Assembly (NCBI GenBank): GCA_947447235.1
Contig: CANFJA010000002.1
Location: 1 to 38,944, forward strand
From: Comamonadaceae bacterium
Lineage (GTDB): Bacteria > Pseudomonadota > Gammaproteobacteria > Burkholderiales > Burkholderiaceae_C
Length of the DNA stretch: 38,944 nt
Direction of reading: 5' to 3'
Both the position numbers and the translations under genes were made by a program. Within the stretch, counting starts at the first letter, position 1. The number at the start of each line of letters is the position of its first letter. The notes beneath the pieces were generated by a model, which ran no database searches, was not told where the DNA came from, and saw only the letters and a list, made by a program, of their open reading frames with translations. Of this stretch, positions 28,417-33,354 are shown one piece after another.

Positions 28417-31281
28417 TTACTTGGTCAGCACAAAGCCTTTGAGCTTGCCAAACGCGCCTTCAACCAGCGCTTTTTGTTGCTCTTGGTGCAGGTGCGAGTA
28501 ACCCACGGCAGGCGACGCTGATGCCGCACGACCTGAATAGCCCAGTTTTTGGCCTGCGTTCATGTTTTCATGGATGTAGTGCTGCACAAAGAACCAGGCG
28601 CCCTGGTTTTGTGGCTCGTCTTGTGTCCACACCAATTCAGTGAGGTTGGGGTACTTCTTGAGTTCGGCCGCAAAGGCTTTGTGGGGGAAGGGATAGAGCT
28701 GTTCCACGCGCAAGATCGCCACGTCGTCAGCACCCAGCTCTTCGCGCTTTTTCACCAAGTCGTAGTACACCTTGCCAGAGCACGCCAACACGCGCTTGAC
28801 TTTGTCGGCCTTGAGCGCTTTGCTCTCAGGGATCACGGTCTGGAAGCTGCCCTTGGTGAATTCAGACACCGGCGATGTGGCGTCTTTGTTACGCAACAGC
28901 GACTTGGGTGTGAAGATGATCAAAGGCTTGCGCAAGTCGCGCACCATCTGGCGGCGCAACACGTGGAAGATCTGGCTGGCCGTGGTGGGCTGCACGATCT
29001 GCATGTTGGTGTCAGCCGCCAATTGCATGAAACGCTCCAGACGGGCCGAGCTGTGCTCTGGGCCCTGGCCTTCGTAGCCGTGCGGCAGCATCAAGGTCAA
29101 GCCGTTGACGCGGCCCCACTTGACTTCGCCCGAGGCGATGAACTGGTCGATCACCACTTGTGCGCCGTTGGCAAAGTCACCGAACTGGGCTTCCCAGATC
29201 ACCAAGGTGTTGGGATCGTTGGAGGCGTAGCCGTATTCAAAGCCCAACACAGCTTCTTCTGACAAGATCGAGTCGATCACGACAAAAGGTGCCTGTTTGT
29301 CGGCCACGTTTTGCAGCGCCACATAGGTGCCTGTGTCCCACTTTTCACGCTTTTGGTCGTGAATCACGGCATGGCGGTGGGTGAAGGTGCCTCGACCGCA
29401 GTCTTCGCCGGACAAACGCACCGGGTAGCCGCTGGCCACCAAGGAGGCAAAAGCCATGTGCTCGCCCATGCCCCAGTCGACCGGAATCTCACCACGACCC
29501 ATCGCGGCGCGGTCGTCGTACACCTTCTTCACCAACTGGTGCGGGGTGACAGACTCAGGAATGGTGGTGACGCGTTCGGCCAAGCGTTTCCACTCGGCCA
29601 TGGGGATGGCAGTGTCGCCCGCGTCGGTCCACTTCTTGCCCAAGAAAGGCGCCCAGTCCACGGTGAACTTGGTTTTGAAGTTGGTCAGCACGGGATCGGT
29701 GGTGTTCTTGCCGGCGTCCAAAGCGGCGCGGTAAGTTTTGACCATCTCGTCACCCAAGCCGTCGCCCAAGCCTTGGGCGGCCAGTTTGTCGGCGAATAAT
29801 TTACGGGTACCAGGGTGTGCTGTGATTTTTTTGTACATCAGCGGCTGGGTCAGCGCGGGGGTGTCTTGCTCGTTGTGGCCCAACTTGCGGAAGCACACGA
29901 TGTCGACCACCACGTCCTTGCGGAAGGTCATGCGGTATTCCAGCGCCAGCTGCGTGGCCAACACCACGGTCTCAGGATCATCGGAGTTGACGTGCAAGAC
30001 CGGGGCTTCGACCATCTTGACGATGTCGGTACAGAACACGCTCGAGCGCATGTCGCGTGGGTCCGAGGTGGTGAAACCGATTTGGTTGTTGATGATGATG
30101 TGCACCGTGCCGCCCGTGGAATAACCACGGGTTTGGGCCAAGGCAAAGGTTTCTTGGTTGACACCTTGACCACCGAAAGCGGCGTCGCCGTGCACCAACA
30201 CGGGCAACACTTGGTTGCCTAAAGGGTCGTCGCGACGGTCCATGCGTGCGCGCACAGAGCCTTCCACCACGGGGTTGACGATTTCCAGGTGAGACGGGTT
30301 GAACGCCAGAGACAAATGCACCGGGCCACCGGCGGTGCTCACGTCGGAGCTGAAGCCTTGGTGGTACTTCACGTCACCTGCAGGCAGCTCTTCGGGGGCG
30401 GTGTGGTCGAACTCGGCAAACAAGTCTGCGGGCAATTTGCCCATGGTGTTGACCAACACGTTCAGGCGGCCACGGTGGGCCATGCCGATCACCACTTCTT
30501 GCACGCCCTTGGCGCCAGCGAGCTGGATCAGTTCATCCATGGATGCAATGAAGCTCTCACCCCCTTCGAGCGAGAAGCGCTTTTGACCGACGTACTTGGT
30601 GTGCAAGTAGCGCTCTAAGCCTTCTGCGGCGGTCAAGCGATCGAGGATGTGTTTTTTCTGGTCGACATTGAAGTTGGGCTTGCTGCGGATGCTTTCCAAC
30701 TTTTGCTGCCACCAACGCTTTTCAGCTTGGTCGGTGGCGTACATGTACTCGGCGCCCAAGGTGCCGCAGTAGGTTTCGCGCAGCGCATTGAGCAACTCGC
30801 GCAAAGACATGTTGTTTTTGCCAAAGAAGGTGTTGCTGGTGTCGAACACAGTTTCTTGGTCGGCATCGGTGAAGCCGTAAAACGCAGGGTCGAGGTCTGG
30901 AATGGCCGGGCGCTCGGTGCGCTTCAAGGGATCAAGGTCAGCCCAGCGTTGGCCGACGTTGCGGTAAGCGGCAATGAGTTGCTGTGCGGCGGTGCGCTTG
31001 CGGCCCATTTCGGCATCGGCGCTGGCCATGACGACCTTGGTGCCGCCCGCTTTGGCGCGCTCGGCAAAGGCATTGATGACGGGCATGTGGGGCACGTCTT
31101 TGGCATGGCTGCCGTCAGCGGCGGGCACGTGCTGCAGGGCATCGAAGTATTCACGCCAAGAATCTGGGACGCTGCCGGGGTTGGCCAGGTAGTTCTCGTA
31201 CATCTCTTCGACGTACGGGGCATTGCCCCCGAACAAATAGGTGTTGCCTGAATAGGCTTGGTAGACGTTTGTCTCGCTCAT
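28417..31281 (-). CDS. sucA: 2-oxoglutarate dehydrogenase E1
   Basis: 954 aa; GMAHRGRLNVLVNTMGK, TDIVKMVEAPVLHVNSDDPE, YGYASNDPNTLVIWEAQFGDFANGAQVVIDQFI. Confidence 0.98.
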   Translation of the reverse strand: MSETNVYQAYSGNTYLFGGNAPYVEEMYENYLANPGSVPDSWREYFDALQHVPAADGSHAKDVPHMPVINAFAERAKAGGTKVVMASADAEMGRKRTAAQQLIAAYRNVGQRWADLDPLKRTERPAIPDLDPAFYGFTDADQETVFDTSNTFFGKNNMSLRELLNALRETYCGTLGAEYMYATDQAEKRWWQQKLESIRSKPNFNVDQKKHILDRLTAAEGLERYLHTKYVGQKRFSLEGGESFIASMDELIQLAGAKGVQEVVIGMAHRGRLNVLVNTMGKLPADLFAEFDHTAPEELPAGDVKYHQGFSSDVSTAGGPVHLSLAFNPSHLEIVNPVVEGSVRARMDRRDDPLGNQVLPVLVHGDAAFGGQGVNQETFALAQTRGYSTGGTVHIIINNQIGFTTSDPRDMRSSVFCTDIVKMVEAPVLHVNSDDPETVVLATQLALEYRMTFRKDVVVDIVCFRKLGHNEQDTPALTQPLMYKKITAHPGTRKLFADKLAAQGLGDGLGDEMVKTYRAALDAGKNTTDPVLTNFKTKFTVDWAPFLGKKWTDAGDTAIPMAEWKRLAERVTTIPESVTPHQLVKKVYDDRAAMGRGEIPVDWGMGEHMAFASLVASGYPVRLSGEDCGRGTFTHRHAVIHDQKREKWDTGTYVALQNVADKQAPFVVIDSILSEEAVLGFEYGYASNDPNTLVIWEAQFGDFANGAQVVIDQFIASGEVKWGRVNGLTLMLPHGYEGQGPEHSSARLERFMQLAADTNMQIVQPTTASQIFHVLRRQMVRDLRKPLIIFTPKSLLRNKDATSPVSEFTKGSFQTVIPESKALKADKVKRVLACSGKVYYDLVKKREELGADDVAILRVEQLYPFPHKAFAAELKKYPNLTELVWTQDEPQNQGAWFFVQHYIHENMNAGQKLGYSGRAASASPAVGYSHLHQEQQKALVEGAFGKLKGFVLTK

Positions 31282-31392
31282 TGCGCTGACCTCCGTTCCC
31301 CTTCAGGGAACATTAGCTGGTTGAAAAAAACCTTCCGCGACACGGCTGAACCGATTGGCGGATGCGTTAGTGGCTGGAAGGGCCTGAAAACA
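31282..31392 (-). ncRNA. structured 5' leader of sucA, candidate sucA RNA motif
   Basis: Minus strand: CCUUCC (31381-31376) can pair with GGAAGG (31336-31331), followed by U7; terminal hairpin GUUCCC-UGAAG-GGGAAC (31311-31295) directly before SD GGAGG (31294-31290). A sucA RNA motif upstream of sucA in Burkholderiales is established in the literature; the match here is by context and structure only. Confidence 0.6.
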
Positions 31393-31398
31393 CCCATC

Positions 31399-31407
31399 AT
31401 TGTGCCA
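31399..31407 (-). promoter_or_regulatory. putative extended -10 of sucA promoter
   Basis: Minus strand TGgCACAAT, about 110 nt upstream of the sucA start. Confidence 0.35.
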
Positions 31408-31458: not shown

Positions 31459-33354
31459 TCAGGCGATTTGATCCTGAATTTGTTTCAAGGCCGTGGGGTC
31501 ATCGATGGTGGTCAGGTCACCCGGGTCACGCTTTTCGCACACCGCTTGGATGGCACGACGCAGCAATTTGCCGCTGCGGGTTTTGGGCAAGGCGGTGACA
31601 AACAACACCCGCGATGGACGCGCCACTGCGCCGAGTTGAGAATCCACCACCTTCATGACCTCGCCTTCTAGCTTCAAACGCGCCGCGGGGTCGCCGAGGG
31701 CCGAGGCGTCTTTGGCAATGGCAAAGGCCATGGCCACCTGGCCTTTGAGCTGATCAGCCACACCGACCACCGCCACTTCGGCGATGTTGGGGTGGCTGGA
31801 AATGCTCTCCTCGATCTCACGGGTGCCCAGGCGGTGGCCGGCCACGTTGATCACATCGTCGGTGCGGCCCAAGATGAAGAAGTAACCGTCTTCGTCACGC
31901 ACCGCCCAATCGAAGGTGCTGTAGACCAGCTTGTTGGGCACTGTGTTCCAGTAGGTGCTGACAAAGCGCTTGTCGTCGCCCCAAATGGTTTGCAGGTTGC
32001 CCGGGGGCAGCGGGCCTTCGATGGTCAGCACGCCTTTTTGGTTGGCACCCGTCAACTCGAGCCCTGTTTGGTCGTCCACCAGCTTGACGTTGTAGCCATA
32101 GACCGCTTTGCCGGGTGAGCCAAACTTGCTGCGGGCTTTTTCCACCCCGTTGCAGATGGTCAGAATGGGCCAGCCAGTTTCGGTTTGCCAGTAGTTGTCA
32201 ATGATGGGCTTGCCGTTCAAGCCCTCAGAAATCCACTTCGCGGTGGGTTCGTCCAAAGGTTCGCCTGCCAAAAACAAGGCCTGCAAGCTGGACAAGTCGT
32301 ACTTGGTGAGCAGCGCCGGGTCTTGCTTTTTGAGCACCCGAATGGCGGTGGGTGCGCTGAACATGACGTTGACTTTGTACTTTTCGACCAAGTGCCACCA
32401 GATGCCGCCATCGGGGCGGATGGGCAGACCCTCGTACATGAGGGTGGCCATGCCGCCAATCAGGGGGCCGTAGATGATGTAGCTGTGGCCCACCACCCAG
32501 CCAATGTCGCTGGTGCAAAAGAAGGTACCACCAGGCTTGCCCTGGTAAATATTCGGAATACTGGCTGCCAAGGCCACGGTGTAGCCCCCGGTGTCACGTT
32601 GCACACCTTTGGGTTTGCCGGTGGTGCCCGAGGTGTAGAGGGTGTAACTGGGATGCGTGGACTCCACCCACTCGCAGGGCACCTGGGTGTCCATGTGCTT
32701 GGCGCGTTCGGTGGCGTAGTCCACATCGCGTCCGGCCACTGGGGTGAAGGCCGCGAGCTTGCGGTCCACCATGATGACGTGGCTGGGCTTGTGGACCGAC
32801 AACTGGATGGCCTCATCCAGCAAGGGCTTGTAAGGCACCCCTTTGCCACCGCGTGAACCGGCGTCGGCGCTGATGATGACTTTGGGTGAGGCGTCTTCGA
32901 TGCGCGTGGCCAGCGAGTGCGAGGCAAAGCCGCCAAACACCACCGAGTGGATAGCCCCAATGCGGACACACGCCAGCATGGCAAACGCCGCCTCGGCAAT
33001 CATGGGCATGTAAATCAGCACACGGTCGCCTTTGACCACGCCCAGGTCTTTCAAGATCGCAGCCATGCGCTGCACCTCAGCATGCAAGTCGCGGTAGGTG
33101 TAGGTTTTTTCTTGGTCGGTCTCGGTCGACACAAAGATCAGCGCAGGCTGGTCGGCGCGGTCTTTGAGGTGACGGTCCACGGCGTTGTGGCACAGGTTGG
33201 TGGTGCCGCCTACAAACCACTTGGCAAAAGGCGGGTTGCTGTAGTCGCAGATCTGCTGGGGGGGTGTTTTCCAGTCGATGTGCTGGGCCTGTTCGGACCA
33301 AAAGGCATCGCGGTCCTCAATGGAACGGCGGTGAAAGTCTGCGTAAGCAACCAT
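31459..33354 (-). CDS. prpE: propionate--CoA ligase (propionyl-CoA synthetase)
   Basis: 631 aa ANL-family enzyme; YTSGTTGKPKGVQRDTGGYTVAL, DNYWQTETGWPI, SGKLLRRAI; SD GAGGAG. Confidence 0.94.
   Translation of the reverse strand: MVAYADFHRRSIEDRDAFWSEQAQHIDWKTPPQQICDYSNPPFAKWFVGGTTNLCHNAVDRHLKDRADQPALIFVSTETDQEKTYTYRDLHAEVQRMAAILKDLGVVKGDRVLIYMPMIAEAAFAMLACVRIGAIHSVVFGGFASHSLATRIEDASPKVIISADAGSRGGKGVPYKPLLDEAIQLSVHKPSHVIMVDRKLAAFTPVAGRDVDYATERAKHMDTQVPCEWVESTHPSYTLYTSGTTGKPKGVQRDTGGYTVALAASIPNIYQGKPGGTFFCTSDIGWVVGHSYIIYGPLIGGMATLMYEGLPIRPDGGIWWHLVEKYKVNVMFSAPTAIRVLKKQDPALLTKYDLSSLQALFLAGEPLDEPTAKWISEGLNGKPIIDNYWQTETGWPILTICNGVEKARSKFGSPGKAVYGYNVKLVDDQTGLELTGANQKGVLTIEGPLPPGNLQTIWGDDKRFVSTYWNTVPNKLVYSTFDWAVRDEDGYFFILGRTDDVINVAGHRLGTREIEESISSHPNIAEVAVVGVADQLKGQVAMAFAIAKDASALGDPAARLKLEGEVMKVVDSQLGAVARPSRVLFVTALPKTRSGKLLRRAIQAVCEKRDPGDLTTIDDPTALKQIQDQIA

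Follow-up and report, generated by a model that had tools for sequence, protein, structure and literature searches.

The leader of sucA in the window (the whole 38,944-nucleotide stretch of DNA analysed here) is an ordinary member of the known family RF01070, the sucA RNA, and upstream of the family model it carries a conserved strand, CCUUCC, that probably forms an alternative fold with the GGAAGG core of the motif. The best explanation, held at a probability of roughly 0.55, is that the leader is an RF01070 cis-regulatory RNA acting on sucA translation, in which the CCUUCC:GGAAGG pairing constitutes an alternative fold excluding the stems P2 and P3. The conserved CCUUCC strand and perhaps a 5' hairpin, both outside the Rfam model, are new here, and comparison of related leaders gives moderate evidence for CCUUCC as the putative switch partner of GGAAGG.

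Gene Context and Membership of the sucA RNA Family

The text of the minus-strand leader was confirmed by a sequence check to be exactly as quoted in the first-pass annotation. The leader occupies the 177-nt gap between the stop codon of an acyl-CoA synthetase-like gene and sucA, whose ATG begins at 31281, and the gene order after it is sucA-sucB-lpd (Table 1); except for sucA, the names of the neighbouring genes were assigned by reading their translations. The closest sucA (99% identity) was found in a Comamonadaceae metagenome bin, the sucA genes of Limnohabitans are 92–93% identical to the one in the window, and the nearest named relatives by sucA are Comamonadaceae.

Table 1. Coordinates of the sucA leader features and of the flanking genes in the window, listed from the upstream gene to sucA.
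Feature	Position	Strand	Basis or remark
Acyl-CoA synthetase-like gene	31459–33354	same as sucA	upstream neighbour
GGCACAAT, probable −10 region	31399–31406	−	conserved in relatives
Small 5' hairpin P0, GGC/GCC, with CCUUCC in its loop	31372–31384	−	minimum-energy fold of the window
CCUUCC, putative switch strand lying 5' of the Rfam model	31376–31381	−	conservation in four families; 6/6 core pairing in 204 loci
sucA RNA motif, full-length RF01070 match (P1, P2, P2b, P3, P4)	31284–31367	−	cmscan
GGAAGG core segment, partner of CCUUCC	31331–31336	−	Rfam alignment; co-evolution with CCUUC
Inner P4 hairpin GUUCCCU-GAA-GGGGAAC, directly before the Shine-Dalgarno sequence	31295–31311	−	many pair types, 276 distinct relatives
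Shine-Dalgarno sequence GGAGG of sucA	31290–31294	−	sequence and Rfam structure
sucA, 2-oxoglutarate dehydrogenase E1, 954 aa	28417–31281	−	ORF; relatives up to 99% identical

When the whole window was scanned against Rfam 15, the sole match was RF01070, with 85.7 bits against a gathering score of 40 (E 3.7e-15, model positions 1–83), which bears out the membership of the sucA RNA motif that had been claimed from the letters. The match stops 3 nt short of the sucA ATG and lies in the presumed 5' UTR of sucA. A single copy is present in the source genome assembly, which is 65% complete. The leader shares with RF01070 the full length of the match, the gene, the place before the start codon and the order of bacteria, and differs from it in that CCUUCC and the predicted 5' hairpin are both absent from the family model. 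The motif has been described as a riboswitch candidate with a ligand called unknown (PMC7011215), and the same is said of the ligand elsewhere (PMC3766115); among the papers searched, none was found that names one, in agreement with what the first-pass annotation had believed. Two candidate RNA motifs that are listed beside the sucA motif and take their names from genes of this pathway, sucA-II (RF01758) and sucC (RF01759) (PMC2864571), are separate Rfam families of gammaproteobacteria, sucA-II being found in Pseudomonadales, and neither gave a match anywhere in the window in the Rfam 15 scan.

Among sampled genomes, RF01070 was detected in 281 of 301 from the same family as the window, in 54/60, 31/41 and 36/41 genomes of the families f8, f32 and f4, respectively, in 4/26 of family f18, in 2/5 of family f3 (both below the cut-off) and in 14 of the 120 genomes of the order sample. 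No match outside Burkholderiales was obtained in a 185-genome class sample, and the genome samples agree with a restriction of the motif to this order. SucA is encoded directly downstream in 256 of the 259 sampled loci where an ORF of 150 aa or more could be read. Two genera of the window's own family, g34 (G033, G159, G241) and g141 (G141, G225), were sampled and gave no RF01070 match despite near-complete genomes; these are apparent losses that could reveal the replacement of the motif. In one genus of f18, the matches (L117, L238, L239) exceed the cut-off, CCUGCAUC replaces AACCCGCUA after P3, and CCUUC is absent upstream.

Across 276 distinct RF01070 matches, P1, P2, P2b and P3 were mostly 91–100% paired, the innermost P3 pair being paired in 70%; some two-sided changes were seen in P2, and inner P4 occurs with many pair types. 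The hairpin GUUCCC/GGGAAC that had been noted directly before the Shine-Dalgarno sequence is this inner P4 and is indeed present. The outer stem of P4, in contact with the Shine-Dalgarno sequence, is weak, its four pairs being paired in 11%, 55%, 88% and 80% of rows; taken from a MAFFT alignment, the P4 values probably underestimate the pairing where loops vary. In the Rfam structure the 3' GG of GGAGG sits in this stem; GGAGG itself ends 8 nt before the AUG.

Conservation of CCUUCC and the Predicted 5' End of the Transcript

CCUUCC lies outside the 83-position RF01070 model, which starts at P1. Its conservation was evaluated in about 295 leaders, 79 of them from named relatives and about 215 from loci in further genomes. 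In the 70 nt upstream, CCUUC alone among 5-mers was found in 70% or more of the leaders of each of four families, the next-best reaching 13%, and CCUUCY occurred in 83% of leaders or upstream regions vs 5% after shuffling. It is missing in about 17% of leaders, some with GGAAGG intact. The position of CCUUCY floats, from 3 to 47 nt from the motif and from 10 to 47 nt from −10-like sites. Its surroundings differ as well: in the window's own family a small GGC/GCC hairpin carries the strand in its loop, a second group of that family has it ahead of a long hairpin, and it lies within GCCCUUCCCCACAACUUGAU in f8, GGUCCUUCCAAGCA in f32 and GCCUUCUGCC in f4. A strand whose position floats while its complement stays fixed points to RNA pairing. 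A second conserved word, ACUUGAU, was observed between CCUUCC and P1 in f8 and f32 leaders (e.g., L112, L183), with ACUUGA/CUUGAU in about 60–90% of them.

The −10 region is conserved (GGCACA/CACAAT) in 85% of named relatives, at a median of 17 nt before CCUUCY, and from it we infer a transcription start near 31392, which would place CCUUCC near the 5' end of the mRNA. In Burkholderia cenocepacia J2315, a 118-nt RF01070 leader with a mapped start was reported by differential RNA-seq at 1676458–1676575 (PMC4603805). If that leader ends at the start codon, as is assumed, it would be long enough for CCUUCC, and an f8-type CCUUCC would lie about 14 nt from its 5' end. In Herbaspirillum seropedicae, expression of the motif RNA is proportional to that of sucA-sucB-lpd (PMC7011215). 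By analogy with these two species, the motif of the window is presumably transcribed within the sucA mRNA.

A hairpin is found at the same end of the leader. In 14 named relatives without CCUUC, the last 28 nt before the motif fold into a stronger hairpin (median −7.2 kcal/mol, z −1.5) than in the 63 named relatives with CCUUC (−2.9 kcal/mol, z −0.1). Its sequence differs among the CCUUC-free relatives, which include L034, L036, L068, L072, L074, L078, L095 and L105: GGGGUU/AACCCC, CAAGAAG/CUUCUUG and CCGGCGUU/GGCGCCGG were all seen. The computed folds suggest that this 5' hairpin adjoins P1.

Complementarity and Co-Evolution of CCUUCC and GGAAGG

A six-nucleotide complement within the sequence of the window alone is weak evidence for pairing; across relatives it stands far above chance. 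In all 204 CCUUCY loci tested, six contiguous pairs could be formed with the core hexamer, be it GGAAGG or the variants GGGAGG and GGAGGG; in the window the two strands are 45 nt apart, start to start. Of the 248 leaders with CCUUC, 235 retain GGAAGG and the other 13 still pair; of the 47 leaders without it, 19 retain GGAAGG. A plain Fisher test of this association (p 4e-17) was distrusted because the rows are related, and a tree-based test with control segments was preferred. On the SucA protein tree, loss of CCUUC coincided with a change of the core in 7.4 independent pairs vs 0 (median p about 0.008), the strongest coupling among the segments tested. Control segments also decay with CCUUC on this tree, namely P2b (5.0:0.1), CCGUG (4.7:0.1) and AUCCGC (5.5:1.5), and the behaviour of P2b and CCGUG indicates that general decay of the motif accounts for some of the co-loss; AACC of P3 does not track the loss (2.1:1.4). 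Candidate compensated lineages were CCUCC with GGAGG (L249, L127), CCUCCU with GGGAGG (L205), CCCUCC with GGGGGG (L122) and CCUUUCC with GGAAGGG (L201), each possibly compensated and each a single case that could be due to chance alone.

Folding Energies and the Proposed Alternative State

In the Rfam alignment, GGAAGG comprises the final 3 nt of P2, a single linking A and the initial 2 nt of P3, so that pairing with CCUUCC excludes both stems. The computed energies do not favour this state in the window. The fold of the 125-nt leader is no more stable than those of its shuffled versions (z −0.39), the CCUUCC:GGAAGG state has a probability of about 0 in the free ensemble, and in forced folds it is about 5 kcal/mol worse than the Rfam fold. 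The pairing that had been read from the window is supported across relatives by its complementarity (6/6 in 204 loci) and by tree-controlled co-loss. By group median, the two states differ by −3.4 (f4) to +3.6 (named loci of the window's own family) kcal/mol in forced folds; such energies would suit a switch decided by ligand or co-transcriptional folding, without proving one.

An extended alternative helix (CAC:GUG and CUUGAU:GUCAGG in f8 and f32; GCCACA:UGUCGC in f1) was seen in forced folds and is not supported as selected, as shuffling the spacer gave equal or better energies. GUCAGG, the partner of CUUGAU in the forced folds, belongs to P2b. In f4 a run of 8–9 pairs was found, among loci too few of which have spacer enough for the shuffle test. 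Since the alternative fold tolerates spacer shuffles, the selected helix seems to be of six pairs only.

Alternative Explanations

A different reading, rather unlikely, is that CCUUCC forms no alternative fold and is kept because a protein or small RNA binds there, close to the 5' end of the transcript, or because it serves as a stability element. Such a role would suit the placement of the strand near the predicted 5' end and, in the window's own family, in a hairpin loop; it would also accommodate the unfavourable free energies in the window and a coupling that is partly general decay. It would leave unexplained why every CCUUCY locus is fully complementary to GGAAGG, why the core is more strongly coupled to the strand than any other segment tested, and why the position of the strand floats.

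It is highly improbable that the CUUCC part of the strand pairs with and masks the Shine-Dalgarno sequence GGAGG, as the first-pass annotation had proposed for the second of two mutually exclusive pairings. Five nucleotides can pair in the window and in many leaders of its own family, and the pairing probability in the free ensemble reaches 0.48 in one locus (L002); its median by group is 0.00–0.17, however, and in f8, f32 and f4, the Shine-Dalgarno sequence in other families being AAAGG or AUAGG, just 3–4 nt are pairable with CUUCC. Changes in the Shine-Dalgarno sequence do not track CCUUC loss on the SucA tree (2.6 pairs vs 2.8). With 3–5 nt of pairing across 204 loci and no tie to CCUUC loss, this pairing was rejected. 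In homologous leaders co-loss was found for CCUUC and GGAAGG, with a few possibly compensated loci, and not for CUUCC and GGAGG; in the Rfam fold it is the weak outer stem of P4, rather than CUUCC, that touches the Shine-Dalgarno sequence.

Hardly credible is an intrinsic terminator made of CCUUCC:GGAAGG and the seven U that follow GGAAGG (31331–31324, minus strand), acting by transcription attenuation, for the U run, terminator-like by eye, is not conserved (relatives have GGAAGGUAUACAUC, GGAAGGUUAAUCAACC, GGAAGGUUAGAUUAACC and GGAAGGUUGUCCUGC) and the conserved feature at its site is the P3 stem, so that this candidate was also rejected.

Proposed Mechanism and Implications

In the preferred reading, the translational switch formed by CCUUCC and GGAAGG, the aptamer fold would engage GGAAGG in P2 and P3, while P1 and the outer P4 stem would hold the Shine-Dalgarno region; P1 and the P2/P3 junction would normally keep P4 and the Shine-Dalgarno sequence in place. 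Capture of GGAAGG by CCUUCC would prevent P2 and P3 from forming, and the support of the junction would be lost. Only two or three weak P4 pairs would then hold the Shine-Dalgarno sequence, permitting ribosome entry. A ligand, for which a metabolite close to the 2-oxoglutarate dehydrogenase step is a plausible candidate, would make the aptamer fold more stable and reduce translation. Since the computed exposure of the Shine-Dalgarno sequence is equal in both folds, the step from the switch to translation is one that we infer. The arrangement would resemble that of translational riboswitches in that one segment, GGAAGG, would have two conserved, mutually exclusive partners near the Shine-Dalgarno sequence, and it differs from them in being a candidate switch proposed from sequence comparison. 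Of the earlier suggestion that CCUUCC is the switching strand, its conservation and its coupling to GGAAGG were upheld, the coupling being partly general decay and the energies in the window favouring the Rfam fold.

For the family as a whole, the chances are judged about even that Rfam has missed a conserved 5' expression element of the sucA RNA, in which CCUUCC would be an anti-aptamer strand dissolving P2 and P3. It would be used in at least four families and have been lost or gained about 20 times on the SucA tree, some lineages carrying a strong 5' hairpin in its stead. If CCUUCC is the switch strand, ligand screens and reporters should add about 10–50 nt 5' of the Rfam model, and a compensatory CCUUCC/GGAAGG design would test the switch without knowledge of the ligand.
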